A model generated the notes under the pieces. The model saw only the letters and a list, made by a program, of their open reading frames with translations, had not been told where the DNA came from and did no database searches. Position numbers and translations under genes: made by a program. 64,000 nt of DNA from assembly GCF_964019385.1 (NCBI RefSeq), contig NC_088654.1:21013375-21077374 (forward strand). Direction: 5' to 3'. The DNA is from Sycon ciliatum. Taxonomy: Eukaryota; Porifera; Calcarea; Leucosolenida; Sycettidae. Below, one piece after another: positions 30,242 through 60,690 of this stretch (the first letter of the stretch is position 1; each line of letters begins with the position of its first letter).

Positions 30242-31027
30242 TTACATGCACACTACCTTCCTCTTCTCCATTGCAATGGTGACAACAGGGTTCAAATCAT
30301 CATAGTCGGCCTCATGACGCGTGCGTTTGGTCTTCGACTCGTCACGAAAGCTGCGATCACGCACTGTGCAGGTGCCGTCTGCGGCCACATCGATGGTGTT
30401 CATCTCGACGTTGACCTTCGTGATGCTTGTGGGCACGGCCTTCAGTTTCATCAGGGGCGACTCCACGAGTTTTAAATCCGACAAACGAATGCAGATGCTG
30501 ACGTTGATCATGTTGATGATTCTCATAAATTCAGGAACGTCGATTTCTTCTGTTTCTTGAAATATGTTCTGGTTGCGTATCGTAATTCTCTCATCAACAT
30601 ACTGGGTGGCCCGGACGTAATTCTCCTTGGGTTCCAGCATGAGATGCAATAGCACGGAATCATCGGCTTCGCTGAGATCACCGAAGTCGGTTACATCAAC
30701 ATCTTGTGGTAGGAGAATCGGACATTGGCCAGCATCAAACTTGCCGTTACTGATTCGAATCAGAAACTCCCCAATGGCGCTTGGTGTCATATCTTGACGA
30801 CTAGCCAGTCCATCGTCAAGAATATCCTCCAACTCGTGCCTCGGTATGAAGCACTGTATTTTCCTGATCTCAATCTGCCGCTCTGATGACACACGGAATA
30901 AAAGGAATACATTCCAGTATAATGGCTGCTGGGGTTGGTGTGAGGGCAGGTCCTCATCAACCGGCGGGATAAACGGCGTGTCAGTTGTCAACCAACGGAT
31001 TGGTGTGCTACATCTGGAGCTACTCAT
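30242..31027 (-). CDS. Unknown 261-aa protein of the palindromic element (left-arm copy)
   Basis: Intact frame from ATG 31027 and the longest in the arm. Composition is mixed alpha/beta: an N-terminal Ser/Pro-rich leader, a YWNVFLLFRVSSE strand, acidic helices, VSICIRLSDLKLVE, and a basic C-terminal KTKRTRHE. I do not recognise a family. Given the flanking PolB remnants it is probably a cargo or structural gene of a Polinton relative distinct from the one at 42991. The right-arm copy is frameshifted. No promoter is evident. Confidence 0.5.
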   Translation of the reverse strand: MSSSRCSTPIRWLTTDTPFIPPVDEDLPSHQPQQPLYWNVFLLFRVSSERQIEIRKIQCFIPRHELEDILDDGLASRQDMTPSAIGEFLIRISNGKFDAGQCPILLPQDVDVTDFGDLSEADDSVLLHLMLEPKENYVRATQYVDERITIRNQNIFQETEEIDVPEFMRIINMINVSICIRLSDLKLVESPLMKLKAVPTSITKVNVEMNTIDVAADGTCTVRDRSFRDESKTKRTRHEADYDDLNPVVTIAMEKRKVVCM

Positions 31028-36959: not shown

Positions 36960-37737
36960 ATGAGTAGCTCCAGATGTAGCACACCAATCCGTTGGTTGAC
37001 AACTGACACGCCGTTTATCCCGCCGGTTGATGAGGACCTGCCCTCACACCAACCCCAGCAGCCATTATACTGGAATGTATTCCTTTTATTCCGTGTGTCA
37101 TCAGATTGAGATCAGGAAAATACAGTGCTTCATACCGAGGCACGAGTTGGAGGATATTCTTGACGATGGACTGGCTAGTCGTCAAGATATGACACCAAGC
37201 GCCATTGGGGAGTTTCTGATTCGAATCAGTAACGGCAAGTTTGATGCTGGCCAATGTCCGATTCTCCTACCACAAGATGTTGATGTAACCGACTTCGGTG
37301 ATCTCAGCGAAGCCGATGATTCCGTGCTATTGCATCTCATGCTGGAACCCAAGGAGAATTACGTCCGGGCCACCCAGTATGTTGATGAGAGAATTACGAT
37401 ACGCAACCAGAACATATTTCAAGAAACAGAAGAAATCGACGTTCCTGAATTTATGAGAATCATCAACATGATCAACGTCAGCATCTGCATTCGTTTGTCG
37501 GATTTAAAACTCGTGGAGTCGCCCCTGATGAAACTGAAGGCCGTGCCCACAAGCATCACGAAGGTCAACGTCGAGATGAACACCATCGATGTGGCCGCAG
37601 ACGGCACCTGCACAGTGCGTGATCGCAGCTTTCGTGACGAGTCGAAGACCAAACGCACGCGTCATGAGGCCGACTATGATGATTTGAACCCTGTTGTCAC
37701 CATTGCAATGGAGAAGAGGAAGGTAGTGTGCATGTAA
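36960..37737 (+). pseudogene. Frameshifted right-arm copy of the 261-aa gene
   Basis: Same start (ATG 36960) and nearly the same sequence as the left-arm gene, but 8 bases (agcggcag in the left-arm sense) are missing near 37104. This shifts the frame between the N-terminal 50 residues and the rest. Confidence 0.75.
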
Positions 37738-39448: not shown

Positions 39449-39760
39449 CGAAAAAAATCATTGTCTAAGTCTCTCTTCATGTTCCGAACTGCTATTCTAT
39501 GGAACTGTTTACCCCCCAGTCTAACATCGGAAGCCTCGCTCTATAAGTTCAAAGCTGCCCTCAGGAAATTTACAGCTGACTATGCTTATGCAATCAACGG
39601 AATTCCGCCACCTTGCAGTTGATTTTCCCCATTTCTCTCCTCATCAATCCCTACTTCTCTTTGTACATACATCTACATCTACTGTTCTTTCAATCAAATG
39701 AACCCCTCGATAGGCACATTGCCTTTGGGTCATTTCATAATAATAATAGTAATAATAATT
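39449..39760 (+). mobile_element. 3' fragment of a LINE inserted in the right arm
   Basis: Encodes the RT-protein tail FRTAILWNCLPPSLTSEASL...FKAALRKF to a stop at 39622, a 3' UTR with cctcgataggcacattgcc, and an (AAT)n tail. The tail resumes at 42493-42518 after the ribozyme array, then the arm sequence continues at ccgccagg. Confidence 0.75.
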
Positions 39761-39909
39761 TGTAAGAAAGGTTTGCTCCCCACACCGGAGCTCGCGCTAT
39801 TCCGCCGACTTTACTTGACACTTGACTGACTCACGACTGCCATCCAGAGCACACGAGAAGTCCATCGAACCTTCGACTCGGCAAACCTGCAAGAAAGCAC
39901 CACTCCCTG

Positions 39910-39953
39910 CTCAATACACAGTGTTTCGGGGAATTCACCCCTCATCAGTTGAG
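39910..39953 (-). ncRNA. Hammerhead ribozyme, copy 1
   Basis: On the minus strand: stem I CTCAA/TTGAG, core CTGATGA, stem II GGGG/CCCC closing a 6-nt loop, core GAA, short stem III ACA/TGT, cleavage triplet GTA. Predicted cut lies between 39915 and 39914. All invariant positions are present. Confidence 0.85.
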
Positions 39954-40386
39954 CTTGAGTAGGCTGAGGAAGATTGTGCCTGAAGAGCACCACTTATATA
40001 GTGCTCTCCAGGCACAAACATCACCAGGGATACAAACTTACAGAGACGCTCCGCTTCCAGCGCGATAAACACCTCGTGAACACCAGATAGCAGCGTGAGT
40101 CAGTGTCGCTCCTGGACGGTGAGACAGACGTCGAGGACCCTCGGTCATTCGCAACGCTGTCACCTCCAAACCAACTAGCCGCAAGCCCGCGCTGGGCACA
40201 ACAGTACGAAGTAGTGGTTGCGACTTCGGCGATGATTTGTAAGAACGGTTTGCTCCCCACACCGGAGCTCGCGCTATTCCGCCGACTTTACTTGACACTT
40301 GACTGACTCACGACTGCCATCCAGAGCACACGACAAGTCCATCGAACCTTCCACTCGGCAAACCTGCAAGAAAGCACCACTCCCTG

Positions 40387-40430
40387 CTCAATACACAGTG
40401 TTTCGGGGAATTCACCCCTCATCAGTTGAG
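40387..40430 (-). ncRNA. Hammerhead ribozyme, copy 2
   Basis: Identical core to copy 1, 477 nt further along. Its unit carries the hAT MITE at 40651-41117. Confidence 0.85.
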
Positions 40431-40650
40431 CTTGAGTAGGCTGAGGAAGATTGTGGTGCCTGAAGAGCACCACTCATATAGTGCTCTCCAGGCACAAACA
40501 TCACCAGGGATACAAACTTACAGAGACGCTCCGCTTCCAGCGCGATAAACACCTCGTGAACACCAGATAGCAGCGTGAGTCAGTGTCGCTCCTGGACGGT
40601 GAGACAGACGTCGAGGACCCTCGGTCATTCGCAACGCTGTCACCTCCAAA

Positions 40651-41117
40651 TAGTGTCAGCCCAAATTTGCCGGCAATTCTTTTGGCATAATATCGAAACA
40701 TTTTAGAAAAAGAATTGCCCGGCATATTTGGAGCATAATTTCGATATTTTTGGAGATTTTCACCGCGATTTCGCGGATACTCGAAGTTTCATGTCCAGCG
40801 CCAGAGGTACATGCGAGTATTGTACTAGGTCCATGCTCAAAACTAAATTCCTTTGCACGGCAGCTTGGTAATGAGCATTGTGAGGTCAATCTTCACACTT
40901 TAAAATGTGAACCCAGCAAAACCGAGCAAATTTCGATGTTTTTCTGAAATTTTCTCCAAAATTTGGTCCAAATTTGGCGTTTTTGAAGCTGTCAGTGAGC
41001 ATAATCAGAGCAAAATACCGTCTTCGCCCGGAAATGCCAAGCATAATATCGAAAGAAGTGCAGCAAAATTATGCGGCATAATATCGAAAAGTCTCGAGCA
41101 AATTTGGGCTGACACTA
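40651..41117. mobile_element. hAT MITE inside ribozyme unit 2
   Basis: 467 bp with inverted ends TAGTGTCAGCCCAAATTTGC and a perfect 8-bp duplication CCTCCAAA (40643-40650 and 41118-41125). The interior is AT-rich with recurrent gcataatatcga. No transposase. Confidence 0.9.
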
Positions 41118-41341
41118 CCTCCAAACCAACTAGCCGCAAGCCCGCGCTGGGCACAACAGTACGATGTAGTGGTTGCGACTTCGGCGATGATTTGTAAGAA
41201 AGGTTTGCTCCCCACACCGGAGCTCGCGCTATTCCGCCGACTTTACTTGACACTTGACTGACTCACGACTGCCATCCAGAGCACACGAGAAGTCCATCGA
41301 ACCTTCGACTCGGCAAACCTGCAAGAAAGCACCACTCCCTG

Positions 41342-41385
41342 CTCAATACACAGTGTTTCGGGGAATTCACCCCTCATCAGTTGAG
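41342..41385 (-). ncRNA. Hammerhead ribozyme, copy 3
   Basis: Same 44-nt core as copy 1, with all invariant residues intact. Confidence 0.85.
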
Positions 41386-41818
41386 CTTGAGTAGGCTGAG
41401 GAAGATTGTGCCTGAAGAGCACCACTTATATAGTGCTCTCCAGGCACAAACATCACCAGGGATACAAACTTACAGAGACGCTCCGCTTCCAGCGCGATAA
41501 ACACCTCGTGAACACCAGATAGCAGCGTGAGTCAGTGTCGCTCCTGGACGGTGAGACAGACGTCGAGGACCCTCGGTCATTCGCAACGCTGTCACCTCCA
41601 AACCAACTAGCCGCAAGCCCGCGCTGGGCACAACAGTACAAAGTAGTGGTTGCGACTTCGGCGATGATTTGTAAGAAAGGTTTGCTCCCCACACCGGAGC
41701 TCGCGCTATTCCGCCGACTTTACTTGACACTTGACTGACTCACGACTGCCATCCAGAGCACACGAGAAGTCCATCGAACCTTCGACTCGGCAAACCTGCA
41801 AGAAAGCACCACTCCCTG

Positions 41819-41862
41819 CTCAATACACAGTGTTTCGGGGAATTCACCCCGCATCAGTTGAG
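41819..41862 (-). ncRNA. Hammerhead ribozyme, copy 4 (core mutated)
   Basis: Same fold as the other copies, but the core reads CTGATGC instead of CTGATGA. This replaces the invariant A9, which should greatly reduce cleavage. Confidence 0.8.
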
Positions 41863-42204
41863 CTTGAGTAGGCTGAGGAAGATTGTGCCTGAAGAGCACC
41901 ACTTATAATTATAGTGCTCTCCAGGCACAAACATCACCAGGGATACAAACTTACAGAGACGCTCCGCTTCCAGCGCGATAAACACCTCGTGAACACCAGA
42001 TAGCAGCGTGAGTCAGTGTCGCTCCTGGACGGTGAGACAGAGAGAGAGGTTTGGAGGTGACAGCGTTGCGAATGACCGAGGGTCCTCGACGTCTGTCTCA
42101 CCGTCCAGGAGCGACACTGACTCACGCTGCTATCTGGTGTTCACGAGGTGTTTATCGCGCTGGAAGCGGAGCGTCTCTGTAAGTTTGTATCCCTGGTGAT
42201 GTTT

Positions 42205-42244
42205 GTGCCTGGAGAGCACTATATAAGTGGTGCTCTTCAGGCAC
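42205..42244 (+). repeat. Long hairpin 5' of the hammerhead
   Basis: GTGCCTG-GAGAGCAC pairs with GTGCTCT-CAGGCAC around CTATATAAGTG. It is present in every unit at the same distance from the ribozyme. The loop region contains TATATAAG, which could also act as a TATA box. Confidence 0.75.
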
Positions 42245-42266
42245 AATCTTCCTCAGCCTACTCAAG

Positions 42267-42310
42267 CTCAACTGATGAGGGGTGAATTCCCCGAAACACT
42301 GTGTATTGAG
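42267..42310 (+). ncRNA. Hammerhead ribozyme, copy 5 (inverted unit)
   Basis: Plus-strand copy with intact CTGATGA, GAAA and GTA. Predicted cut between 42305 and 42306. Confidence 0.85.
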
Positions 42311-42845
42311 CAGGGAGTGGTGCTTTCTTGCAGGTTTGCCGAGTCGAAGGTTCGATGGACTTCTCGTGTGCTCTGGATGGCAGTCGTGAGTCAGTCAAGT
42401 GTCAAGTAAAGTCGGCGGAATAGCGCGAGCTCCGGTGTGGGGAGCAAACCTTTCTTACAAATCATCGCCAAAGTCGCAACCACTACTTCGTAATAATAAT
42501 AATAATAATAATAATAATCCGCCAGGAGGCACTCGAGAACGATCGCCCAGGAGTTGCTGGTACTCCGTGACTATTCTCCATCGCATTGGCCGATTGGGGT
42601 GTTGATTTCAGCATCAGACCTTCTCTGTGTTGCGCAAGTCACATGCTACTAGTCGCGGGGCCAGACCAAGCGCGCCCAACACTGTCTGCCTTATTTGGCC
42701 CAAAGGTCAAAGGTCAAAAAATGCGCCAGAACCCGCTTTTTACATACTACTGTTAAATCCGTCAGATGAGAAAACAGACCTTATCGCAAAAACTGTACAG
42801 TGCAGAAAAGTGCGCTTGAAAGTTGGCGAGTTTACCAGCTGGTGC

Positions 42846-42990: not shown

Positions 42991-43260
42991 AGTAGAAGGT
43001 AACAGGAGGGTTTGAGGCCAAAGTTGACCCGGAAGTGACCTTGTCATGTTTTTGACAGGCTGTGGTTTGACCCTGTCAATTTGTGGTTTGACCTTGATTA
43101 CTTTACCGTGACATCCGTCAAATAGTGTTACAAGATCACGTGTAACACCCGTGTACTGCGATGTAGTTGTGTTACCATAACTTTTGTAGAAAGTGTGACG
43201 GTAACTTTGAAAAGTGTGACGGAAACTTTGAAAAGTGTGACGGTAACTTTGAAAAGTGTT
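42991..43260 (+). repeat. Polinton left terminal inverted repeat
   Basis: 270 bp. It matches the right repeat with a single difference that I found. Its inner end holds three tandem units of about 20 bp with the core GTGACGGTAACTTTGAAAA. Confidence 0.97.
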
Positions 43261-44612
43261 TGTTATGCGTGGGGAGCAAACCCTTTTGTTATGCTGTTAC
43301 AAAAAAAAAAAAAAAAAAAAAAAAAATTTAAAACTGTATCAATGAAATGTCTTTTATTTTTATTACAAACTCTGTTTTTATCATTATTTGTTAAACTGTG
43401 TGCGTGCAACAAACTCTGCTTTCCCTCTGGAGTATCACGGTGAGCACCACCACCACCGCACCACCAAACCTGATACTCCACGAGCAAAACAATCCATCAC
43501 CGTTGCAAGCCTGCTCGACTCTGCATGAAGCAACAGGCTAGCCGGCAATGACAAATTGAAGAGAGGTACCACTGCGAAGAAGACGATCACTTGCGTGCTA
43601 CTCGAAGAGAGAGAGAACATGTACTCAGGATGTAGTCCTGTGAAGAAGACGATCACCTGCGATACATCTGAAATGAATGAATGATGCGATGCATCAGCCG
43701 TCTAGCGTCGTGTTTGGGTAAAGGTGAAGTGATGTGCGCTCAAGTGCATGGATCTACGCTAACTATTCACGGTCTGCGAGTACTTGTCATGCACGAACTT
43801 GTCGGACAGGTAGAACAATGCCGAAGACAAGTTGTCAAGTCTGTCCGTGTAGTTACTTTAAGTGCTTGACTGTGTTGTACATGTACATGTAAGGTCTTAG
43901 AGGTTTTCCCGTGGAAGCATACAGAAAGAGCGTTGGCACTAGTTTGAGAACAAATGTGCGCGGCAGTATTGTCTCAAGCTGTTTGTGGACAATTGCCTCA
44001 CCTCGTGATGGAGAAAATGCAAGCGCATGCATACCGAGACGATGACGACGAGGAGTGCTCACCTCGGAGTTTGCACCGTTATGAACAAACACGCACGGCG
44101 GCATCGTCTCAAGCGGCTTGTGGGACAATTATTTGCCCACCTCGTGATGGAGAAAATGCAAACGCATGCATACCGAGACCACGAGCGCTCACCTCGTGAC
44201 GATGAAAATGCAAGCGCATGCATACCGAGACGATGACGATGAGGAGTGCTCACCTCGGAGTTTGCACCGTTATGAACAAACACGCACGGCGGCATCGTCT
44301 CAAGCGGCTTGTGGGACAATTATTTGCCCACCTCGTGATGGAGAAAATGCAAACGCATGCATACCGAGACCACGAGCGCTCACCTCGTGACGATGAAAAT
44401 GCAGACGCATGCATACCGAGATGATGAGCGAATCGTCTTTTTGCCATAGAGTAGGGTGGGAACGAACGTGCACGACGGCGTTGTCTCAAGCCGTTAAGCA
44501 GCTGGTGCATCCAGCACCCCACCCGACCAAGCAGCTGTTTTGACTAGTGTCCACCCGACCAGCCGGCATTACCTATTGTCGCGCAGATACCCATCCTCAT
44601 TCATCTGCTAGC
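43261..44612. other. Polinton left non-coding region
   Basis: No gene supported. It contains a long A-tract (about 43301-43326), a region of unknown character and the tandem repeat at 43985-44425. Confidence 0.6.
43985..44425. repeat. Tandem 191-bp repeat with iteron-like GCATGCATACCGAGA
   Basis: Two full units of about 191 bp (compare 44040 and 44231). The sub-motif GCATGCATACCGAGA occurs five times, near 44024, 44163, 44217, 44354 and 44408. It is non-coding and sits between the terminal repeat and the first gene. Confidence 0.85.
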
Positions 44613-44619
44613 TATAAAA
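44613..44619 (+). promoter_or_regulatory. TATA box of the 44743 gene
   Basis: TATAAAA about 125 bp upstream of the coding region. Confidence 0.55.
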
Positions 44620-44742
44620 CCTCATCCCTTCCTCCACTCGGTATCACTTATCCCTTCCAAGTTTTAACGAATTAACTCTCTAGCCTGCTCAGCCATAAAA
44701 AGATATGTTTTCCACAACTTTTCCCAAAATTTTCATTAATGA

Positions 44743-45387
44743 TGGCGTGGAGAAGGGCCTCCAGACGAGGCACAAGGGAAGGGGTCGCACCTACCCAGAT
44801 CTCGCACCAGGTGCGACTTTTTTTATCCTGAAACCACGGTACCCGTCTTCGTTGCAGACGGGATAGCCAGAAAAGGGAAGTACTCCCAAGTTACGATCGA
44901 ACTGCCCGTGGACCTGGCGGAAATCGTCAAGACGGTGATAAAGGTGTCACCGTCGATTCGGCGAGCTATTTCATCCGAGCGGGTGAAGAAGATATCTACG
45001 AACTTCTTCCCGACAAAGCTGTCATCCCCCGTCGCTGGGGGTAAGAAGGTTGGCGTCGATGTCTACATGAAGATGACGTCAACTCTTTGTGCCGATGATT
45101 TCACCATGAACAAGGTGGCGCAGTACGCAATCTTCGTGTCGGCCGTATCTTGGTGGCGGGATGCTAAGAAGTATAAATGCACAATCAGCGCTTGTCCGGT
45201 GGACAAGATCCCCAAGACCGGAGCAAGCATGAGAGGTATGACTGAAGGCGACGGAGAAACCTTCGTCATTCCTGACGAAGAGCTCGGAAAATTGACGGAG
45301 CGTTTCTCGGAGAAGTGGAGTTCAACCACAGCTAGCAGCGACGACGAAGACGACGACGCGCTAAATGAGCTGTTCCACGATGTATAA
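44743..45387 (+). CDS. Acidic-tailed protein, possible ssDNA-binding protein
   Basis: Open from 44743 (just after a TGA) to TAA 45387, about 214 codons without a good in-frame ATG before residue 100. An ATG at 44742 starts another frame that joins this one only by a shift, most simply at the T7 run 44818-44824. Visible features: VPVFVADG...YSQVTIELPVDL strands, a basic segment KKISTNFFP, VAQYAIFVSAVSWW, and a very acidic tail (DDEDDD) ending in LFHDV. Beta-rich with an acidic, hydrophobic-tipped tail is the pattern of ssDNA-binding proteins, and the gene is next to PolB; that function is inference. Alternatives are a spliced leader exon or an indel error. Confidence 0.55.
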   Translation, partial: WRGEGPPDEAQGKGSHLPRSRTRCDFFYPETTVPVFVADGIARKGKYSQVTIELPVDLAEIVKTVIKVSPSIRRAISSERVKKISTNFFPTKLSSPVAGGKKVGVDVYMKMTSTLCADDFTMNKVAQYAIFVSAVSWWRDAKKYKCTISACPVDKIPKTGASMRGMTEGDGETFVIPDEELGKLTERFSEKWSSTTASSDDEDDDALNELFHDV

Positions 45388-45411
45388 TGTTTAACTTTAC
45401 GTATGTACCAT

Positions 45412-45457
<46 letters not shown>

Positions 45458-46721
45458 CTCTGCCATGCGTTTGATGTTGGTGTGACGTTGTCACAAACTA
45501 CACGTATACAATGAGATAATGATTGAAACAGATTATGACGAGATAATTACTCTTTTGTACAGATGCACGTATTGCTCTAAATCATTTTCCCTTTATCACA
45601 AACTACACGTATACAATGAGATAATTGATATAGCTATTACTACGAGATAATTACTTTTGTACAGATGCACGTATTGCTCAAAATCATTTACGAGGCAGTT
45701 TAATAATTATACGCAAATGTTTTATACAATGAATACTACATCACATTAAAGTATGTTCGTTTACTATCGTGTTTGCATTATAAAATGAATATTACTACAT
45801 CACATTGAAATACGCTCGTTTGCAATGAATAGTAAAACTAAGTTACATCTCTTACTGGTGTGGAGGGACAAGTTCATCAGCATGTTCAGGATTCATAACT
45901 TGGTATTTTCTAGTAATTTTTGTGGAGCGGGTGGAATGCCCGTCCGTGTACCAGGATTGTTTTGTTGTCTTGATCTTAACCAGTGTCAGTCGAATGCCGT
46001 TGTGTCCTACAACGACGTTGTCCGTGTATGTGTATCGAACAGTCGTGACGATGCGGGTAATTCTCGATTCCATATCTAAACAAACAGGCATGCATATGCA
46101 CTGCGGTTAGCCTTGGTGGGTTTATTGCAATTTATACACCATTGCAGCGGGACTCTTACCTGGTTGTTGTTGTTGTTGTTGTTGCTTGCTTGAGCTGTTG
46201 CTGCTGTTGCTACCGCCGTCTTTCTTTCTCTACTCGTTCTTTCTCATTCAAATGAACAGCAACAGTTGGTGCAGAGTCTAGTACTAGTAGATGCATTTTG
46301 CTCCTTCTTCCCGCACTGTGCATCACTCAGTCATGAGCTGTCAGACGTATGCCATGCCATGCATGTGCAATGTAAATTAGTTCCCCCACGCGTGAGCTGC
46401 AGCGAGGCTGTGTTGTGCTAGGAACATTGTACTACTAGTACTAGGTGTTCTGGGTAGGAGCACGTGCAGAAAGAATGAGTGCACATGTCATCTGTCGCGC
46501 GTGCAGCTCTACCAATACGTCAATGTCTCCATTTATAGCATCGCACTAAACAAGTTAGGACTTGCATGCTAACGTGTCAATAAAAGTACTTGCCCATGAC
46601 AAGTCGATGAGTATGTGCAGGAATGCTCCTCACACGTCGTAATCCGAAGAGGGACTAATTACATCATGGATCGAAGTGTATGTATATGCTGATGTCGTGC
46701 ACAAGATCCAGGTGTACAAGG
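45388..46721. other. Non-coding, between the two plus-strand Polinton genes
   Basis: Holds an (AC)n tract (45412-45456), a roughly 110-bp imperfect direct repeat (cacaaactacacgtatacaatgagataat at about 45492 and 45597) and the PolB promoter region. No gene supported. Confidence 0.6.
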
Positions 46722-46729
46722 TATAAAAG
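46722..46729 (+). promoter_or_regulatory. TATA box of PolB
   Basis: TATAAAAG 56 bp upstream of the PolB ATG, a canonical RNA polymerase II core promoter position. Confidence 0.7.
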
Positions 46730-46777
46730 TTCATTTCTTCAACGCCGAATTAGCCATCGGCGAGGAGATCTTTCAAG

Positions 46778-47571
46778 ATGAAGCGCGCTCACTCTTCAGG
46801 GGAGGAGGAGGAGGAGGAGGAGGAAGAGAAGGAGGAGGAGAATACTGCTCCTCCCCCATCAAAGAGTGCGAGAGTTGCAGATGATTCGCTCTTTGAGCTG
46901 AGACGTAGCGCACCTCGAGGTTATCTCCAAGAGTACCGAGCCGCACTGAGTGATGATCATAGAGATGTGATGTCGGTGTTCAACGAAGTAGCACCGGACG
47001 TGCGAGGTGTGATGAAGAGCGAGCTTGAAGAACACCAGTACAAAGCGGTCGTGGTCGTTTGCGTTACGCTTGAGAGAAGCGATGCTGCGGGTGAAATCTT
47101 TTCAGCATCACCTTTCTTCCGCAGTCGACCTATGATCATGCTGAACCCATCCAACGTTGACGATCAGCTACCCGGCGCATTTGGTAAGATCATCGGTAAA
47201 CTCGATGCGTGGATACAGGCTGGCTCGGGATGGACGGTGACTGGAGTGAAAAGCATCAACATCGACATTGCAAAGTATAAGCCTATGCGTGGCTCTTCGT
47301 ACTTACCTCTCCCGGACAAGATCGCTAAGACCAGGAGCATCATCAATGTTCAGAATGATGATGAGCAATGCTTGAAATGGGCGCTCTTATCAGCACTCCA
47401 CCCGGCGGAGCAGCACGCTCATCGCGTTACCAAGTACGTGCGGCATGCACAGGATCTGGACTTTGATGATGTCGAGTTTCCCGCGACTCTCGCCGATGTG
47501 TATAAGGTAGGCGTTGTGAAACGCTATTGCATCTGTTTGATCGATATCTGTGCACTCGTGTGTAATTGTGC

Positions 47572-47602
<31 letters not shown>

Positions 47603-50600
47603 TGTGTGTTTGTAAGTCACTCATTCATTTGTGCGCTTTTTCCGGCTTCTTGTTCACGCGTGTAGGTGGAGAAGAATAATAACTTGCACATCAACGTGTT
47701 TGGCTTTGAAGGCGAGTGCCTCTTCCCGCTGAAGCTGGTGGACTATGATAGTATTAGTGGCGATGATAGCGATGTGATCAACCTGCTGCTAATCTACGAC
47801 GAGATGGTGAATCACTTCTGCTGGATCAAGAACTTCAACGGTCTGTGCTTTCACTTGAGCAAGTGCAGATCTCGGACTCACTTCTGCATGAGATGCTTGT
47901 CAGGACACCGCACCCCCGAAACGCTGAGGAATCACCAGCGTTACTGCACGAATGTCAAGCCTGCCGCAGTGAAACTACCGGAACCGGGAGAGACGCTGAG
48001 ATTCAAGGATGTTCAGCGTAGGATGAAGATGCCGTACGTAATCTATGCCGATACGGAGAGCCTTATCGTACCGAGCTCGGAGCAGCATGGAAAGCATACG
48101 GTTCGCAATGCAGAACACGTCCCCTGCGGTGTTGCCTACGTGGTAGTCCGCTCAGATGGAACGGTTACGAATCGATATCTGTGCAGAGGTGAGTCTCAAT
48201 GCACTGCATACACTCTTAATGATATGCCGTAAAAATGCTCCTACTATGATGTATCCATTTGATGTATAATAATAATATTATAATTGCATCAAACTCATGA
48301 AGTGTGTGTTGTGTGTGTGTGTGTTGTGTGTGTATATGGACGTGTGCTATCCAGGAGATGACTCAATCGAGACGTTTTTCGAGCAGTTGACTAGCGAGGA
48401 TGGGAGAATCACCGAGGATCTCAAAAGAAAGCGGTCGTTGACCATGACGGACGATGAGCGGCAACGGTTTGCTAACGCTTCTGAGTGCTGGATCTGCAAC
48501 AAGCCACTCAACGCCGATCGAGTGAGAGATCACGATCACATCAGCGGAGAGTTCCGCGGTGCTGCACACAACGCATGCAATCTTCTTCTACGCATCACAC
48601 CAGAGACGCATCCAATTCCCGTGGTGTTCCACAACCTTAAAGGTTATGATGCACACATGCTAATTTCACGGATCGGTGTCACCACGAGTGAAACGAGCAG
48701 TATCACGCAACCCAGTGGAAGAAGCGGACTCAAGAAGGCGGGTGAGATAAAGGTGATTCCGAACAACATGGAAGGCTACGTGTCGTTTTGCTGGGGGAGA
48801 TTTCGCTTCGTGGACAGCCTTGCCTTTTTGAACGCATCACTGGACAAGTTGGTGAACAATGCGCCTGGAGAGTCGTTCAAACATCTGAGATCTCTCTCTG
48901 CGATTCACGCAAGGCGGATGAATGGAGGTAACAGCGCCAGCAGCAGCAGCAGCAGCAGTACCAGCAGCACCGTCACCAGCAGCAGCAGCAGCGTCACCAC
49001 CGACACAAGCGTCTGCAGCGGTGTCAGTGTCTGCGCTGACACTGATGATGTCTCCCATCCCGGCAGAGATGATGACGATGCTGATGATGATACTCCTGTC
49101 AACCCCGACGACTTGTTTGAGCTTCTCCGTCGAAAGGGTGTATACCCATACGAGTACATGGATTGTACGATGAGGTTTGGAGATACGTCGCTCCCTCCAA
49201 AGGAGAAGTTCTTCTCTGCGCTATCGGAGAAGCATATCAGCGACAGCGACTACGAGCATGCTCAGCGGGTATGGACAGCCTTCCAGTGTCGGACAATGGG
49301 AGACTACCACGACCTGTATCTCGACACGGACGTGAATCTCCTCGCGGATGTATTCGAGACCTTCCGAGCCACGGCGATGGGTACCTACGGTCTCGACCCA
49401 GCGCATTATTACACCCTGCCGGGTTTCGCCTGGGATGCACTGCTGAAGTTCACTGGTATCTCTCTATCTCTTCTGAGCTGCGTGGACATGCACCTGTTTA
49501 TCGAGCGTGGTCTGCGAGGCGGGGTATCGATGGCCTCTCATCGTCATGCCAAGGCCAACAACAGGTATGTTCGCATGCAAGCGTATAAGTAACTCTGTTC
49601 GGTTTTATATTGCAATTATACATGTATAAATACTTGTGGTGTAAATACTTGCGAGCTCATAAATAACATACACCTACTAATTACTGTGTGTGTGTGTGTG
49701 TGTGTGCGTGCGCGTGTGTGCGTGTGCGCGTGCGTGTGTGTGTGTGTGTGTGTGCGCACGCGTATGCTCTACTGTATTAGATACATGGCTACACACGATG
49801 CAGGCAAGCCATCCACCTATTTGCAGTACCTAGATGCGAATAATTTGTACGGTTGGGCTATGTGTCAACACCTACCCGTATCCGACTTTGAATGGAGCGT
49901 TCCCAGCAGTGAGCTTCTCGCCGACATCCTCAAACATCCTAGCGATGCGTCAAACGGCTACATCGTTGAGTGCGATCTTTCGGTACCGGATCATCTTCAC
50001 GATCTTCTGAACGATTATCCACCAGCGCCGGAGAAGGTCAGCATCGGTGAACACATGCTCTCTCCGTATCAGCTGGATCTGCTGGAGAGCACCCCCATCA
50101 CTGGACTCGCAGCCGCGAAGCTGGTACCTCACCTGCTACCAAAAACACGCTACGTCCTGCACTATCGGAATCTACAGCTCTACGTAAAGCTGGGTCTGAA
50201 GATTGATAACGTGCACCGAGTGTTATCGTTCAAGCAGTCGGCATGGATGAAGCCCTACATCGAGCTGAACACCGATCTGAGAAAGAATGCAGCCAACGAT
50301 TTTGAGCGCGACTTTTTTAAGCTTATGAACAATGCGGTCTTCGGCAAGACAATGGAGAACGTGAGGAGGAGAGTGAACATCCGTCTGCTGAGAGTCGAAG
50401 ATGATGAAGACGTGATCCTCACGGCCGTTGCAAAGCCCACCTATGCCAGACACGTGATGTTCGACAACGGTCTGATCGGCGTGGAGAACAGGAAGCTAAG
50501 GGTAACGCTAAAGAAACCGGTGTACGTTGGCATGAGCGTGCTTGATCTCAGCAAGGCGCTCATGTACGAGTTCTACTACGCACATCTGAAGGCTCGCTAC

Positions 50601-51105
50601 GCAGAGCGTGTCACTTTGCTCTACACGGACACGGACTCGTTTGTCCTGAAGTTTGCCACGGACGATCTGTACGATGATATGATGAGCACCATCGACGAGT
50701 ATGACACGAGCAACTACCCGTCTGAAAACCCGCTTTACAGCCAGCAGAACAAGAAAACCGTCGGGAAGTTTAAAGACGAACTGGGCGGACGTCTGATGAC
50801 TGGGTTTGTGGCGCTTCGCTCTAAGATGTATGCCTATGACGGTGAGGAGAGCGGACAGCGTGCAAAAGGCGTTAAAAGAAGTGTGACAAAGCAGTTCACC
50901 CTGAGCGACTATGAGCGATGTCTGACACACCGGACCGTCTCTGCTCATCCGATGACAGCTATTCGGAGTCATGCTCACCGCGTCTACACCGAGACTATGA
51001 CCAAAACGTCTCTATCTCCTTTTGATAGCAAGCGCTACATCCTGCCTGATGGTGTATCTACGCTGGCATACGGTCACCATCGCATTGCACAGTCAGACGT
51101 GCAGT

Positions 51106-51107
<2 letters not shown>
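46778..51107 (+). CDS. Protein-primed family B DNA polymerase (Polinton PolB), 4 exons
   Basis: Replicates the element by protein priming. Exons 46778-47506, 47666-48188, 48355-49564 and 49781-51107 have GT-AG introns and consistent phases, giving about 1262 aa. N to C: Glu-rich start; the Polinton N-domain (GSGWTVTGVKSINIDI, about 150); a C2H2-like zinc segment; ExoI YVIYADTES (about 366); an inserted endonuclease-VII-like zinc module CWIC...DHDHISGEFRGAAH..CN (about 462-495); ExoII HNLKGYDAHML (about 510); a Ser/Asp-rich expansion (about 613-690); motif A YLDANNLYGWAM (about 835); motif B KTMENVRRRV (about 1010); motif C YTDTDSF (about 1102). Every intron contains or adjoins a GT microsatellite. 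The TAG stop sits in a CAG repeat. All catalytic motifs look intact. Confidence 0.95.

Positions 51108-51154
<47 letters not shown>
51108..51154. repeat. (CAG)n tract after the PolB stop
   Basis: About 15 CAG units directly after, and including, the TAG stop context (gcagTAGcagcag). Confidence 0.95.
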
Positions 51155-51155
<1 letters not shown>

Positions 51156-51362
51156 CAGTTTCTCCACAGTGAAACGTTAAACATGTCATTCATTATTGGT
51201 ATGATGATAAACAATTACGGAATATGCATTACATTGTTCAGTTGATGGGATTTATCGGAGTGAAGTGATGATGATCGTACTAGTACTAGTATGCATGTTG
51301 ACATGTCTGTACAAGTGATTTTGTATTCATGATGATGATGATGATGATGGTGAATATAAGAC

Positions 51363-52829
51363 TCAGAGTTTTTCAAATTGATCCTTGGTGATCCATGAGT
51401 TGAATTTGTCCGGGTAGCCTTTCCACTTGACCAGAAACCGTCCGCGCTGCCTGCGCAGGACTTTGTCCACGCGAAACTGTGTTTGCATGGTCCTCTGCAA
51501 CTGCTGTTCGTAGAAGCTCCCAAGAATGGGCTCATTCATGAGATCTCTTATGCCATAGGTGACGGGCTGGGTTGGCAGCACACGGTCGATAAGGAACACC
51601 TCCTCGGTCCAGTTTGGCGTGTAGCCCTTTTCGAAATGACGCTTGCTCACTGCTATTCTAACCTCATCATCTACGCTGTAGCGAGGGTCTGCACGTGGTC
51701 GATGCGTTTGGGGGTGATCCTGTACGAACGGTGCATTTCTTTTCAATGAAGCTTCCGTGGGTGTCATACGGATGCTGCGATGCTTGCTGTTGTTGTAGTC
51801 GTGCACCAGTCTGGGCAGTACATCTATGTACACGTTGGTCGATTTAGCGGTAAAGTGCTGCCACATGCGCGACTTGAGCGTTCTGTTGAACCGCTCCACG
51901 ACAACGGCCTTACCCTCGTTGTGCGTACTGTACATGTCGATATCCCGCTCCGCCAGCCATCGTTTGAGCACTGCATTGTAAAACTCGGTTCCCTCATCGA
52001 CCCATAGTTTTCGGGGCGAGCGTTCGCTGTCACTCGTGATTCTTTGAAAAGCGTCTCTCACGCTGGCACCGGTTTTCCTCTTCAGAGGTATCACCCACGC
52101 ATATCTGCTGAACAAATCAATCACGGTGAGCAAGTGTCGAATCTCCTCGTTGTACTTCGCATAGGCCTGCATGTCGACTAGATCCGCACTCCAAATACTG
52201 TCAAGCTCATGCACAATCACTGGTCTGCGGGGAAAGTGCACGCGTCGAGGTCTGTGCAGATCGCGTGCCAGACGATCCGTCCAGCTATCGCGAGTGTTGC
52301 TGCTGCTGCTGGTGCTGCTAGCGCCGCCGACTGAGATCTCGTGAGCGACGTCTTTTTCCAGAATCTTACGATCGTTGTGAAGCGTGTCGCTGTCGAAGAG
52401 CTTTGACAGTGCATGTAGAGTTTTCTCGATGCCACCCTCGGAAAAGAGACGTCCGACAAAAACTGCATAATACCCGCACACCGCAGTCGTTGTGTCCTGT
52501 AGCACCTGAGTGTTGGTGCAGAGCGTGCAATCGGAATAGGCTTCTGCAAAGTAGCGCTCCAGACCGGGCTCGTGATAGTCCTGCTCCATACGAGCGAGCG
52601 TGCGACCAAAGCTGTCAAAGACCAGCACGCGATTCTTCTCTCGACATACCGTCAGCCAGTGATGTCCACCCTGAGGTGGATCGTACAGTGGTAAAACGTT
52701 ATCCGTGTTGGCAACACAAAACTCGCCATCGCGCAGATCAGCCAGCAAATCGTAGCTGCACACACCTACAAATCCGTTCACGTGCCGCAGACGATCCTCG
52801 ACGTCTTCGTTGCTCAGCGGTTCATCCAT
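51363..52829 (-). CDS. Fused adenain-like protease and retroviral-type integrase with chromodomain
   Basis: 488 aa from ATG 52829. Residues 1-165 form an adenovirus-type cysteine protease: His57 in GGHHW, Asp72 in VFDSFG, Gln near 108-111 and Cys118 in VCGYY. Such proteases mature capsid proteins. A Ser-rich linker (170-178) follows. Residues 185-400 form the Polinton integrase: HFPRRPVIV, then the DDE residues Asp216 (WSADLVDM), Asp278 (WVDEGTEF) and Glu312 (VVERFNRTLK). Residues about 440-488 are a chromodomain (FLVKWKGYPDKFNSWI). The two enzymes are normally separate genes in Polintons. Here no stop or start separates them, so the integrase is either made as a fusion and cut by its own protease, or acts fused. 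It converges on PolB. Confidence 0.93.
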   Translation of the reverse strand: MDEPLSNEDVEDRLRHVNGFVGVCSYDLLADLRDGEFCVANTDNVLPLYDPPQGGHHWLTVCREKNRVLVFDSFGRTLARMEQDYHEPGLERYFAEAYSDCTLCTNTQVLQDTTTAVCGYYAVFVGRLFSEGGIEKTLHALSKLFDSDTLHNDRKILEKDVAHEISVGGASSTSSSSNTRDSWTDRLARDLHRPRRVHFPRRPVIVHELDSIWSADLVDMQAYAKYNEEIRHLLTVIDLFSRYAWVIPLKRKTGASVRDAFQRITSDSERSPRKLWVDEGTEFYNAVLKRWLAERDIDMYSTHNEGKAVVVERFNRTLKSRMWQHFTAKSTNVYIDVLPRLVHDYNNSKHRSIRMTPTEASLKRNAPFVQDHPQTHRPRADPRYSVDDEVRIAVSKRHFEKGYTPNWTEEVFLIDRVLPTQPVTYGIRDLMNEPILGSFYEQQLQRTMQTQFRVDKVLRRQRGRFLVKWKGYPDKFNSWITKDQFEKL

Positions 52830-52836
52830 TCTGCTG

Positions 52837-52842
<6 letters not shown>

Positions 52843-52868
<26 letters not shown>
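52843..52868. repeat. (GT)n tract in the protease-integrase leader
   Basis: Dinucleotide repeat just upstream of the fusion gene's start. Confidence 0.9.
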
Positions 52869-52870
<2 letters not shown>

Positions 52871-52882
52871 GTGAACCTCATA

Positions 52883-52899
52883 CTCTATAGAGAATTTCC
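52883..52899 (-). promoter_or_regulatory. Late-type upstream element, protease-integrase
   Basis: The minus strand reads GGAAATTCTCTATAGAG, a weaker match to the element shared by the morphogenesis genes. Its TAG is the stop codon of the neighbouring 52885-53985 gene. Confidence 0.4.
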
Positions 52900-53985
52900 T
52901 CTGAGAATTGCATAAACCTTTCGAATGGAGTGGTTGTTGTTTTTCAGCACGCCAATCACAAAGTCTTTGTCGGTGGTGAGAACCCTGTGCAAGCCGTGCA
53001 TGAAGTGATCCGGGTTCATGAGCTGCGCTTCCACCGTGCTTGCGTACGTCTGTGACATCTCTTCCAGGCCTCTGAACTTGTTACCTGCCGAGCCGGGGAC
53101 GGTGAGCGAGAGCTGCAGGATGGTGGCCAGTTTGGTTCGAAATCCCGAGAAACCTGACAATTGCGCCGTGAGGCCGAGGTCACGCAGTGCCACCCTCTCG
53201 AACGGGTATTTAGCCAGGTAAATGCGATTAGTTTCGTTCGTCAAGGCTACATAGTCTCTCCAGATCGTGGACTCGACGCGTTGTCGTACACTTTCCAGCT
53301 CGCCTGCAAACGTGGATGGATTATCGTCGAAGAGCTGCTGCAGCTGAACTCTGGCTGTGAAATAACTGCTTTTCAAAAACACCATGGGTATGCTCCGTCG
53401 TGTTAGCTCATCCGATAAGATCTGCAGCATGATGCGATCGAAGTCCGAATCCCGTGTGATGCTCAGTGAGAGCGTGGAGACGGGAGCTTTCTTCTGCATC
53501 CTCACGTCGGCCATGGACCCCCGAACCGCTCCTGTGCGAGCATCGTAGTCGAGCAGATCCGATGCGATCACGTTCAGGACCGATTCGTAGTTGATAAGAT
53601 CGGGACTGTGCTTGAAGTGACGCTCGTACAAGCCCTTGACGCTCGGGTGCTTTTGAAGTTCGCCTCGAGACAGTCTGCTCAGTGCATGTTCAGGTATGTG
53701 CTCCAGAGCTTTCTTGGCGTTTCTCAAGAAGTCGCCGTACTTGCTGCTGCTGCTGCTGCTGCCTGAACCTTTGAGCTCGACATCTCGAGAGCGCTGATGA
53801 GGGGCTATACCGACTACTTCCCACGACGTCTTTCTTCTTTTCACAATGTGTTGAGGCTGCCGTTGCATGAACTGGAGAGCCTTTGCTCGCTTCGCTTTCG
53901 GTATCGAAAACGGACGTGCATCCCGATCAACGCGACTAATGCTCTTCGGCAGCCCCTTGCTAAATCTAACCACAAGACGCTCCAT
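52885..53985 (-). CDS. Polinton protein of unknown function, 366 aa
   Basis: Starts at ATG 53985 (MERLVVRFSKG); a GTG upstream would add 9 residues but is unlikely. The N-terminal 80 residues are basic (KAKRAKALQF, KRRKTSW), then a short poly-Ser run, then a largely helical C-terminal 280 residues containing DSDFDRIMLQILSDEL and YVALTNETNRIYLAKYPFERV. No family recognised. The position between the integrase and the packaging ATPase, and a shared upstream element, suggest a virion or assembly protein. The gene is intact. Confidence 0.75.
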   Translation of the reverse strand: MERLVVRFSKGLPKSISRVDRDARPFSIPKAKRAKALQFMQRQPQHIVKRRKTSWEVVGIAPHQRSRDVELKGSGSSSSSSKYGDFLRNAKKALEHIPEHALSRLSRGELQKHPSVKGLYERHFKHSPDLINYESVLNVIASDLLDYDARTGAVRGSMADVRMQKKAPVSTLSLSITRDSDFDRIMLQILSDELTRRSIPMVFLKSSYFTARVQLQQLFDDNPSTFAGELESVRQRVESTIWRDYVALTNETNRIYLAKYPFERVALRDLGLTAQLSGFSGFRTKLATILQLSLTVPGSAGNKFRGLEEMSQTYASTVEAQLMNPDHFMHGLHRVLTTDKDFVIGVLKNNNHSIRKVYAILRGNSL

Positions 53986-54039
53986 AGTCACACATGCACA
54001 TGCACGTTGCACGTACGATCGTCAACTCTCTCTCTCTCA

Positions 54040-54061
54040 CTAGTTGGGGGGATTTATTTTC
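54040..54061 (-). promoter_or_regulatory. Late-type upstream element, 366-aa gene
   Basis: The minus strand reads GAAAATAAATCCCCCCAACT followed by AG. Its AATAAA could also serve as the poly(A) signal of the ATPase transcript that arrives from upstream. Confidence 0.5.
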
Positions 54062-54190
54062 ATGCCAACCCTGTCCAAATCGCTGGGTTTTACACGAACC
54101 GTCTCCAAGTGTGCTGGATTTTATCCATTTGCGTGCACACACACACACACACACAACACCGAGGCTTTGAGGCGTGATGTGAAATATACT

Positions 54191-55177
<987 letters not shown>

Positions 55178-55187
55178 GACTCTCTAG

Positions 55188-55209
55188 CTGTAGGCGGAAA
55201 AATGTAATC
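55188..55209 (-). promoter_or_regulatory. Late-type upstream element, ATPase
   Basis: The minus strand reads GATTACATTTTTCCGCCTAC followed by AG, about 10 nt before the ATG. Confidence 0.45.
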
Positions 55210-55501
55210 AAATGTTGAACGAAGGGGTCATGTGCGCTGATGATGCTGCTGACGAGTTGTTGCCGATGCTCGCTCTGTTCAGATTCTCCCGTATCTTCCT
55301 TGCAAAGGGTGTGTCATGTGTGCTAGCAGCAGGAGCGGCAGCGGTGAAGGTGGGTGATCTTCGTCGTTTGGATGAAGACCTCGACAGTGTTCCACGGATT
55401 TTTGATTTTATTCTGGACTTGGTCTTGCTTTTAACCTTTTGAAACAACCGTCTGCCGGTGGATTGCAACTGCTCGCTCACGAGACGCTCTGCTCGCTGCT
55501 T
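55208..55501 (-). CDS. Basic Ser/Lys/Arg-rich frame without its own ATG
   Basis: About 97 codons, very basic (KVKSKTKSRIKSKIRG, SSKRRRSP), with an Ala-rich middle. The only plausible start is a GTG at 55480. It follows the TAG of the pX-like gene directly and is in the same frame. It is most easily read as the former or read-through C-terminus of that gene, or as an exon joined by splicing. It resembles a DNA-condensing core protein. Confidence 0.5.
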   Translation of the reverse strand, partial: KQRAERLVSEQLQSTGRRLFQKVKSKTKSRIKSKIRGTLSRSSSKRRRSPTFTAAAPAASTHDTPFARKIRENLNRASIGNNSSAASSAHMTPSFNI

Positions 55502-56119
55502 CTAAGTCCTGCCGGTCCTTTTGGTTCGTCTACCACGCACGGTGCGACGAGATGATGACGATGATGATGATGACGATGGCGATGATCTTTTCCGCTTGGT
55601 GCGCTTGCCGGGTGACCTTTTTGCATGCTTCACATGTGTCTGACGTTTTCGACGTACGGTACGAGTCTTGGTACCATCGCCAAACACTTTGTCCACCACG
55701 TTGTCACCCACAGAGGCCAATGCACCCATGGCGAGAGGGATGCCGATGGACTTCAGCAGCGGTAGACCTTTCGCTAGCAGGGCAGGTGGTATGGACAGAC
55801 CGCCGCGTTGCATGAGCGGATCGCGAGCCATCATCATCTGTCTCTGAATAGCATTACCACCGAGACCGTCATTATCTTTACCTTTTCCGTTCATCAGCAT
55901 AGGGAGTAGAGAGAGTCCAGCTAAAGCCCAGGGAAAACCACCACGTTGCATAGGCAGTTCATTTTTGGAGGGTTGTGACATGCGCTTCTGCAGCTCAGCC
56001 GGACCGAGTCCGAGCAGGTTACCGATAAAGCCAAGAAAGCCGCCGCTTTGGCGATGGGTGGTGCTCAAGTCACCACCTTTCACAAATCGCTGTTGCGTCG
56101 CTAAGTCACCGCCATCCAT
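55502..56119 (-). CDS. pX/pVI-like minor virion protein
   Basis: 205 aa from ATG 56119. It has repeated Gly-Gly motifs (MDGGDL, VKGGDL, QSGGFLGFIGNLLG, MQRGGFPW, MQRGGLS), two hydrophobic helices (about 28-40 and about 100-130) and a very basic, Ser-rich C-terminus (RRKR, KRTKRKR, poly-Ser, RGRRTKR). This layout of GG sites, membrane-active helix and basic tail is that of adenovirus-type minor core/cement proteins. The GG sites could be targets of the element's own protease (inference). It lies just upstream of the ATPase in the same direction. Confidence 0.65.
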   Translation of the reverse strand: MDGGDLATQQRFVKGGDLSTTHRQSGGFLGFIGNLLGLGPAELQKRMSQPSKNELPMQRGGFPWALAGLSLLPMLMNGKGKDNDGLGGNAIQRQMMMARDPLMQRGGLSIPPALLAKGLPLLKSIGIPLAMGALASVGDNVVDKVFGDGTKTRTVRRKRQTHVKHAKRSPGKRTKRKRSSPSSSSSSSSSRRTVRGRRTKRTGRT

Positions 56120-56145
56120 CGCTCGCACATTGCTTCTTCCTTGCT

Positions 56146-56167
56146 CTAGTGCAGAGAAAATTCTTCA
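56146..56167 (-). promoter_or_regulatory. Late-type upstream element, pX-like gene
   Basis: The minus strand reads GAAGAATTTTCTCTGCACTA followed by G. It overlaps the MCP stop codon. Confidence 0.5.
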
Positions 56168-57757: not shown

Positions 57758-58358
57758 GCTTGTTCTCCTCGCTTGCCTTTACATATGAGGGGGAAATATT
57801 TTCACGTTGGTCGTCCAGAGAGCCGTCCACAAAGTCGCGAGCCTCCTCATAAATACCCTTCAACTTGAGATGCTCCTCGCTGGTTAGCACTCCGTCATGC
57901 ATGCATGCACCCAGTTCCATGGTGAAAGCGTCTTCGGCCTTATCCCATCGCTGTTGAGAGAGTAGGAGCTTTTTCTGCATTCCACGTTGCGAGGATACGC
58001 GCTTGCTAACGCATCCCAGAGCCAAGCTGGTCAACGTGCTCGCCAGAGAGAGCCCGCCAACGATGCGCTTATCCACATCGGCAAACACCGTTGTCTGACT
58101 AGCACTGAGAGCAAGCTGAACACCGAGAAGCACGGTGAGTACTATGTTTCCATGTGACAAGCGTTTTTCCACAGCAGCGATCTTGTTTTTCTCCAGTTCC
58201 TTTCGGTCTCTGATTTTTCTCAACAGCTGTCGAAGATGATCCACTCGGAACTGCTCGACGGCACTTCCCGTCTCTACAGGCGAGAGGTTCGTCGGTGTTG
58301 CATTGCTATCGCTGCTGCTGCTGCTGCTGCTGCTGCGGTTGCTGCTGTCAAGATCCAT
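57714..58358 (-). CDS. Two-helix membrane protein with flanking coiled coils
   Basis: 214 aa. Poly-Ser N-terminus, a basic heptad region (about 36-66, LRQLLRKIRDRKELEKNK), TM1 about 71-86, TM2 about 99-116, then a long helical tail. The hairpin-plus-helix layout resembles SLATT-type two-TM domains, but I cannot confirm homology. The position between the minor and major capsid genes and a shared promoter element suggest a virion membrane or assembly protein. Confidence 0.7.
   Translation of the reverse strand: MDLDSSNRSSSSSSSSDSNATPTNLSPVETGSAVEQFRVDHLRQLLRKIRDRKELEKNKIAAVEKRLSHGNIVLTVLLGVQLALSASQTTVFADVDKRIVGGLSLASTLTSLALGCVSKRVSSQRGMQKKLLLSQQRWDKAEDAFTMELGACMHDGVLTSEEHLKLKGIYEEARDFVDGSLDDQRENISPSYVKASEENKHGADARLSGDPRIV
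57782..57805 (-). promoter_or_regulatory. Late-type upstream element, major capsid gene
   Basis: The minus strand reads GAAAATATTTCCCCCTCATA then TG. It is followed by TAAAGG, 24 nt before the ATG. Confidence 0.55.
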
Positions 58359-58369
58359 TGTCGACTTTA

Positions 58370-58392
58370 CTATGCAGAGGAAATATTTTCAA
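58370..58392 (-). promoter_or_regulatory. Late-type upstream element, two-helix membrane gene
   Basis: The minus strand reads TTGAAAATATTTCCTCTGCA then TAG, followed by TAAAG. The TAG is also the stop codon of the penton gene. Confidence 0.55.
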
Positions 58393-59116: not shown

Positions 59117-59163
59117 TCTTGTTCTATGGAAGAAAAAATATATCTTCTCTTTATTAGAGCATC
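59117..59163. promoter_or_regulatory. Bidirectional promoter between penton and fibre genes
   Basis: 47 bp with a single AT-rich core (gaaaaaatatatcttctc). Read on minus it gives GATATATTTTTTCTTCCATA-G before the penton ATG; on plus it gives AATATATCTTCTCTTTATTA-G before the fibre ATG. Both directions match the late-type element. Confidence 0.6.
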
Positions 59164-60000: not shown

Positions 60001-60045
60001 TTATGTTTCTGATGATGATGATGATGCTCATGACGATATTGATCA

Positions 60046-60591: not shown

Positions 60592-60690
60592 GATGAGGCG
60601 GACAGAAAGTATAGGTTGTTCACTAAACTGTAAAAGAACAAATGAGTACCGGATAAACGATCATCGTGATCTTATAATATCTCGATGTGA

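Follow-up and report, generated by a model that had tools for sequence, protein, structure and literature searches.

A stretch of 64,000 nucleotides of the sponge Sycon ciliatum (contig NC_088654.1, positions 21,013,375 to 21,077,374; hereafter the window) contains, at 39760-42490, an insertion filled by five copies of a non-coding unit of about 477 bp that carries a hammerhead ribozyme motif. Comparison with other copies in the genome revealed that most insertions of this unit consist of two arms placed head to head, and that in nearly all of these one outer end lies at one fixed site of the unit (A) and the other outer end at a second, nearby site (B). This insertion anatomy is shared with Penelope-like elements (PLEs) of the same genome, and the unit is probably a non-autonomous, retrozyme-like retroelement that uses the PLE machinery. 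Since it has no open reading frame (ORF), it is not filed as a PLE, and its size, its GC content and the outcome of the Rfam search keep it from being strictly a canonical metazoan retrozyme.

Head-to-Head Insertions With Two Fixed Ends

The genome search for further units that had been proposed in the initial annotation covered an assembly of 538 Mb in 313 contigs and returned thousands of cores: an exact 26-nt core has 3,466 occurrences (1758 + 1708), and its reversed control has none. Tandem periods of 477-480 bp were observed among the listed genomic cores. Thirty-seven loci, namely the window and 36 other clusters, were mapped to the unit, in which position 1 is the first base after cleavage; because 40 of 1277 candidates were scored, this sample favours copies near the query. 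The 74 arms differ from unit 1 by 256 substitutions over 57,397 bases (0.45%), 91 of which fall at site 213, and this low divergence indicates that the sampled copies are young.

In the two-armed insertions a minus-strand arm precedes a plus-strand arm, with the 5' ends meeting inside and the 3' ends facing outward. The first 100 core places listed (C1, 0.2-14.2 Mb) include 15 pairs of neighbours on opposite strands no more than 1.2 kb apart, and all 15 show the same order. The outward ends cluster at A (positions 180-192, mostly 187, the last TA being shared with the target) and at B (positions 138-157), which are 26-45 nt apart on the unit. Ends were entered by hand in a table of 36 rows, from which four duplicates (L144, L148b, L148c and L163) were removed to leave 32; outside the table stand L146 and L155, for which a script found two arms with one end neither A nor B, and the one-armed L158, L159, L167, L171 and L174. 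Thus, of the 34 independent two-armed insertions, 32 pair an A end with a B end, and not a single A+A or B+B insertion was observed; if ends were picked independently with a probability of 0.5, this pattern would have P = 2.3e-10. The A end is on the left in 14 of the 32 and on the right in 18.

In a set of 33 two-armed elements that contains duplicates as well as L146 and L155, 22 have at least four TAA/ATT units in their flanks; for comparison, about 1% of window bases are located 30 bp or less from a tract of this kind. Genome-wide, 501 A ends continue with TA and then ten A/T bases (reversed control 0), and TAATAATAA or TATTATTAT follows the A end in most of 100 listed cases. Target duplications of 11-15 bp were identified at eight other sites (L140, L155, L159, L162, L166, L168, L169 and L171). 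The inner 5' ends range over the unit, from position 4 to 476, and the 33 inner junctions show either an overlap of 0-9 nt (18) or a filler of 1-17 nt (15). More than half of the arms (37/66) are longer than one unit, with a maximum of 3,106 bp. As a separate observation, L162 and L163 (G000 C3, about 19 kb apart) have opposite orientations, an identical target duplication and unequal unit numbers, and probably represent an inverted segmental duplication after which the array length changed.

The Array in the Window and Its Hammerheads

The window copy follows the same plan, with a minus-strand arm at 39760-42041 (units 1-4) and a plus-strand arm at 42048-42490 (unit 5), whose 5' ends meet inside around a 6-nt filler at 42042-42047. 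Hence the direct-repeat array of the initial annotation holds for units 1-4, which share the minus strand, and fails for unit 5, which is inverted. Unit 1 (39760-40235) has on its left a sense 3' end of the B type at unit position 157; unit 2 (40236-41190) is interrupted; unit 3 spans 41191-41667; unit 4 (41668-42041) is 5'-truncated at the inner junction; and unit 5 (42048-42490) closes the insertion on the right with a sense 3' end of the A type (187 including the TA shared with the target). The flanking targets on the plus strand are a TAA-rich tract on the left (39736-39759), which reads as the 3' tail of a long interspersed nuclear element (LINE) fragment, and (TAA)n on the right (42491-42518). 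The interruption of unit 2 is a later event, a 467-bp insertion with terminal inverted repeats at 40651-41117 that has CCTCCAAA on either flank; the ends of this element are TAGTGTCAGCCCAAATTTG, and its apparent duplication is 8 bp.

The 477-nt monomer was recovered when measured between cleavage sites, as both uninterrupted monomers have exactly this length, with GC contents of 0.541 and 0.537. That the array is non-coding was likewise borne out, since the circularised unit has stop codons in all six frames; no ORF of 150 aa exists within the element at 39760-42490.

Each of the five units holds one hammerhead, as had been described for a 477-bp periodicity, although unit 2 is split by the 467-bp insertion and the core of unit 4 is altered. 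The motifs of units 1 (39909-39954), 2 (40386-40431) and 3 (41341-41386) on the minus strand and of unit 5 (42266-42311) on the plus strand have intact cores. That of unit 4 (41818-41863, minus strand) has C for the last A of the core and is probably inactive, judging from its sequence; the window therefore has four copies of CTGATGA and one CTGATGC instead of the five CTGATGA copies reported initially. The other parts were seen as described, namely the GGGG/CCCC stem II with a 6-nt loop, GAAA, the GUA triplet, and the CTCAA/TTGAG stem I, which reaches 6 bp beside the core when the next pair is included. The predicted cleavage between 42305 and 42306 agrees with the GUA site of unit 5. Stem III has 3 bp only if A15.1-U16.1 is counted, and otherwise 2 bp; its stretch ACACuGUGU is self-complementary except for the central base, as might be expected of hammerheads acting as dimers. 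Dimeric hammerheads with a weak stem III have been described (PMC7229834, of which, as of PMC3846280 and PMC11167929 below, selected parts are considered here).

The type I arrangement (core CUGANGA...GAAA...UH and three stems, with stem I open) was found in four of the five window units. A descriptor composed of CTGANGA, stem II, GAAA, stem III, UH and stem I matched four times in the window and never in 150 first-order Markov sequences (64 kb, both strands), and the motif is thus more than chance. Both core and stem I are kept in 115 of 125 hammerheads of the 37 loci, duplicates included. In viral contigs the exact core was absent, and at least 120 stretches there match a generic hammerhead pattern.

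Read as circles, the two monomers of the sense strand fold at -197.3 and -200.1 kcal/mol (z -5.2 and -5.9, 60 shuffles each), compared with -153.4 and -156.5 kcal/mol for the antisense circles. Upstream of the hammerhead, at 42203-42246 of the plus strand, there is a 20-bp hairpin whose loop contains TATATAA (z -9.25), and the same hairpin sequence recurs at 39974-40017 and 41406-41449 of the minus strand. The end sites A and B sit just 3' of GCAACC and GCAAACC, respectively. A hairpin at B forms in the 100-nt fold, where the z-scores (-0.88 and 0.03) are unremarkable.

Relationship to Penelope-Like Elements

In the PLEs of Adineta vaga, inverted pseudo-long terminal repeats (pLTRs) are mostly arranged head to head, and one inverted pLTR bears a 31-bp tail on its 3' side; duplications of 8-10 bp, a TATA and a palindrome within the pLTR, and mobilisation of another sequence in trans have also been reported (PMC3846280). 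The purified PLE protein of Anolis (Poseidon) cuts and extends both strands, with a preference for ATT, and reverse transcription begins at two adjacent internal sites, most frequently within an AC-rich stem-loop, and the tail corresponds to the stretch that separates these sites; in vitro, the start site does not differ between the strands (PMC11167929). The 477-bp unit has in common with PLEs the head-to-head copies, the tail of about 30 nt on one 3' end, the target-site duplications and the AT/ATT-rich targets, and, so far as these parts of the two papers go, also the hammerhead, the upstream palindrome with TATA, and two adjacent, here putative, start sites of reverse transcription on opposite target strands. 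It differs from them in coding for nothing, and hence in lacking the ORF for a telomerase-like reverse transcriptase and a GIY-YIG endonuclease, and in that its rule of one A and one B end is stricter than an optional tail. Because the strands do not differ in start site in the consulted parts of PMC11167929, the rule is not simply the published result.

PLEs of the same genome provide a direct comparison. A PLE query gave at least 70 matches (67 of 3465 candidates scored), many of them in open frames near 1,085 aa, and opposite-strand neighbours within 10 kb were in the minus-then-plus order in 7/7 cases counted by eye. One PLE family was followed at four loci. At three of them both outer ends were seen, at L188 positions 1627/1603, 1621/1598 and 1603/1627, so that in 3/3 loci each side ends at a different one of two sites separated by 23-24 nt, beside TAA/ATT tracts or AT-rich DNA; the sequence covered at the fourth locus includes the left end only (1627). 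The tie to PLEs drawn in the initial annotation accordingly holds through the insertion anatomy, which these three loci also display.

The features shared with pLTRs raise the question of whether the units are remnants of autonomous PLEs, that is, solo pLTRs left in tandem without any independent life as an element. The hammerhead, the TATA-bearing hairpin, the tail and the head-to-head arrangement are all known in PLE pLTRs, at least in the parts of the literature considered here. However, the 3,466 exact cores, the clean periods of 477-480 bp and the fixed-end insertions of units alone point to an element moving as such, and two long gaps inspected between cores contain no PLE ORF, which makes an origin as remnants improbable, though a parent PLE may yet exist. 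An autonomous element between widely spaced cores was rejected at both places considered: L193 is without a 150-aa ORF, and the ORF of L194 was read as Ty3/gypsy-type.

Four PLE proteins used as queries found no PLE sequence in the window or in loci L121-L186. A 21-nt match to the unit in one PLE piece (L190, E 0.014-0.018) was taken as chance. Minimal hammerheads are present in two PLE families, namely the one followed above for its outer ends (L188:1420-1455) and another (L206:1229), with the cores CTGAAGA and CTGAGGA.

Relationship to Retrozymes and a Second Hammerhead Family

Metazoan non-LTR retrozymes (LTR, long terminal repeat) have been described as repeats of 150-450 bp giving RNAs of about 170-400 nt, with a GC content below 50%, and PLEs were named by the authors as a strong candidate for their mobilisation (Cervera and de la Pena, 2020, PMC7229834). 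The naming of the array as a metazoan retrozyme is therefore only partly sustained. As in the retrozymes of that account, the units are non-coding and tandem, carry a type I hammerhead, occur in many copies with duplications of more than 4 bp, and share their genome with PLEs. Unlike them, the unit measures 477-480 bp, thus exceeding the published size range, has a GC content of 0.54 (0.537-0.541 in the monomers), and has a short stem III that is missed by the Rfam model RF00163; moreover, head-to-head insertions with two fixed ends are not described in the parts of PMC7229834 consulted. Plant LTR retrozymes, as presented there, are likewise non-autonomous elements with a hammerhead and a proposed circular RNA, but theirs is a type III hammerhead, accompanied by LTRs with a primer-binding site and a polypurine tract and by 4-bp duplications. 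In a literature search whose scope left subscription papers mostly outside, we found nothing linking retrozymes to head-to-head insertion, nothing on hammerhead ribozymes in sponge (Porifera) genomes and, for Penelope with twin priming, no title on the present subject.

A second hammerhead family of the genome serves as a contrast. RF00163 gave 21 matches at E<=1e-3, four of them over the cut-off (74 candidates scored), and the loci of this family (L129-L138) lie on one strand only in 10/10 cases, end 11-15 nt past the cleavage site in 9/10, and form tandem 226-228-bp units at three (L130-L132). This 226-bp family fits the published description of retrozymes better than the 477-bp unit does, and the two hammerhead families of one genome insert differently.

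The contrast also bears on a more conventional interpretation, in which the 477-bp unit is a canonical retrozyme of the metazoan non-LTR kind and owes its mobility to a LINE, by one-sided target-primed reverse transcription, its inversions being occasional twin-priming accidents. Tandem hammerhead units, duplications of more than 4 bp, the LINE fragment adjoining the window copy and the one-armed insertions with a duplication (L159, L171) are all in keeping with it. We regard it as unlikely, given that the 37 loci as a rule contain two-armed insertions with both outer ends fixed and that one-sided insertion in this genome is exemplified by the 226-bp family instead; the twin priming of L1 is not known to have a fixed second site. 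Here insertions of a hammerhead repeat bear the PLE signature next to a canonical family, which bears on the question of which enzyme moves animal retrozymes. With the A+B rule, the PLE tail can be phrased as a testable claim on how the two target strands are primed, and this genome, in which young copies number in the thousands and many PLE frames are open, is well suited to testing both points.

Template and Proposed Mechanism

Sequence variants were classified where an element offers three or more informative units, a limit below which a further 70 variants fell; 69 occur in a single unit, 19 in every unit and 8 are intermediate. Twelve of the 19 every-unit variants are at site 213, where only the window carries the other allele. 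The homogeneity of that site (22/22 elements, permutation P 5e-5) was set aside, as it rests on this lone allele, and the 7 other fixed variants were used. Five are fixed in both arms (L139 387T in 11/11 units, L140 299A in 6/6, L162 72G in 6/6, L141 163T in 3/3 and L154 326G in 3/3), and two in one arm (L143 299A and L150 326G, each in 3/3). From the sequences, fixation in both arms suggests, as its simplest source, a single monomeric RNA template, and rolling-circle reverse transcription of a circle would produce the same pattern.

The high identity of tandem units may also recall satellite DNA amplified by unequal crossing-over, with the hammerhead as an incidental passenger, and the 8 intermediate variants together with L164, a mixed array of two haplotypes, suggest some exchange after insertion. 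The loci are dispersed, however, with fixed ends and target duplications that refute such amplification as the main mechanism, and their hammerheads mostly keep core and stem I; we find an origin as a satellite scarcely credible.

For the non-autonomous element using PLE machinery, the following course is envisaged. The hammerhead would cut transcripts of the repeat, a reaction for which the short, self-complementary stem III probably favours the dimeric form, and the monomers may then be closed into the 477-nt circles anticipated by the initial annotation. The AT-rich targets and their duplications are what a PLE reverse transcriptase/endonuclease would leave if it bound the RNA and made cuts staggered by about 11-15 bp in the two strands of AT-rich DNA, with (TAA)n as its preferred target. 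The observed end positions could arise if each cut 3' end primed cDNA at a fixed site of the RNA, A being used by one strand and B by its partner, and the long arms if reverse transcription went round a monomeric, putatively circular template for a variable distance. The two cDNAs would finally be joined 5' to 5', via the microhomology or short filler seen at the junctions. It is further possible, and we propose this tentatively, that a single complex on one circular RNA makes each insertion, such that the strands are obligatorily assigned A and B, both sites launch reverse transcription around that same circle and the arms join 5' to 5'. If true, a hammerhead element would be exploiting in trans a concerted two-strand, rolling-circle form of target-primed reverse transcription, and the PLE tail would be the trace of a two-site start complex.

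Several observations weigh against these proposals. L146 (ends 34 and 158) and L155 (ends 98 and 187) each have one end off A and B; in L155, the minus arm coincides with bases that also give a plus reading. Five insertions are one-armed, with an A end in L158, L159, L167 and L174 and a B end in L171. The duplication at L143 is only 7 bp; none was found at L158 or L146, and none that is convincing at L167 or L174. The hairpin at A forms in 54-nt and 75-nt folds and is absent from the 100-nt fold. No PLE resembling the 477-bp unit was seen among the PLE pieces inspected. The 8 intermediate variants (L145, L157, L162, L164) stand against 7 fixed ones besides site 213, and exchange after insertion could be an alternative source of the likeness among units. 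As fixed and intermediate variants are about equally numerous, and with L146 and L155 counted, our confidence in both the PLE-driven and the concerted scheme is tempered.

The hammerhead itself was missed by Rfam: the window gave no match at the gathering score, and neither the 3-kb region nor the 101 bases around unit 5 gave one at E<=10. The initial annotation had called for a match to the hammerhead model and named failure to match, together with a lack of cleavage, as grounds for refutation, and as far as Rfam goes the failure to match was observed; we tentatively attribute it to the model coping poorly with so short a stem III. Folding adds little in favour of the motif, as its free folds are unremarkable (z -1.44 and -1.79) and the hammerhead fold, at -17.0 kcal/mol, lies 2.3 kcal/mol above the minimum of -19.3.

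Neighbouring Elements in the Window

Other mobile elements surround the array. Adjoining it is a Maverick/Polinton-like element at 43190-61728, where 43190-43259 consists of 21-bp tandem repeats that return as the reverse complement at 61659-61728; it has an integrase with a chromodomain and weak matches, below the Pfam cut-off, to DNA polymerase B and an AAA ATPase. A long frame of a BEL/Pao retrotransposon extends over 5831-11935, with Peptidase_A17, RVT_1, DUF5641 and DUF1759 and an integrase match below the cut-off, and a LINE with an apurinic-type endonuclease and a reverse transcriptase lies at 15323-18413 and has a 99% relative in another public contig. A LINE protein of the window has a second close relative at 79%, and its best named relative, at 44%, is a eukprot entry whose prefix, scpid, denotes Sycon ciliatum. 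In addition, an inverted pair of one frame, encoding a protein without a Pfam match, is located at 30242-31027 and 37027-37737, within a large palindrome in which inverted 69-bp and 30-bp tandem repeats are found around 29901/37943 and 31985/35951.

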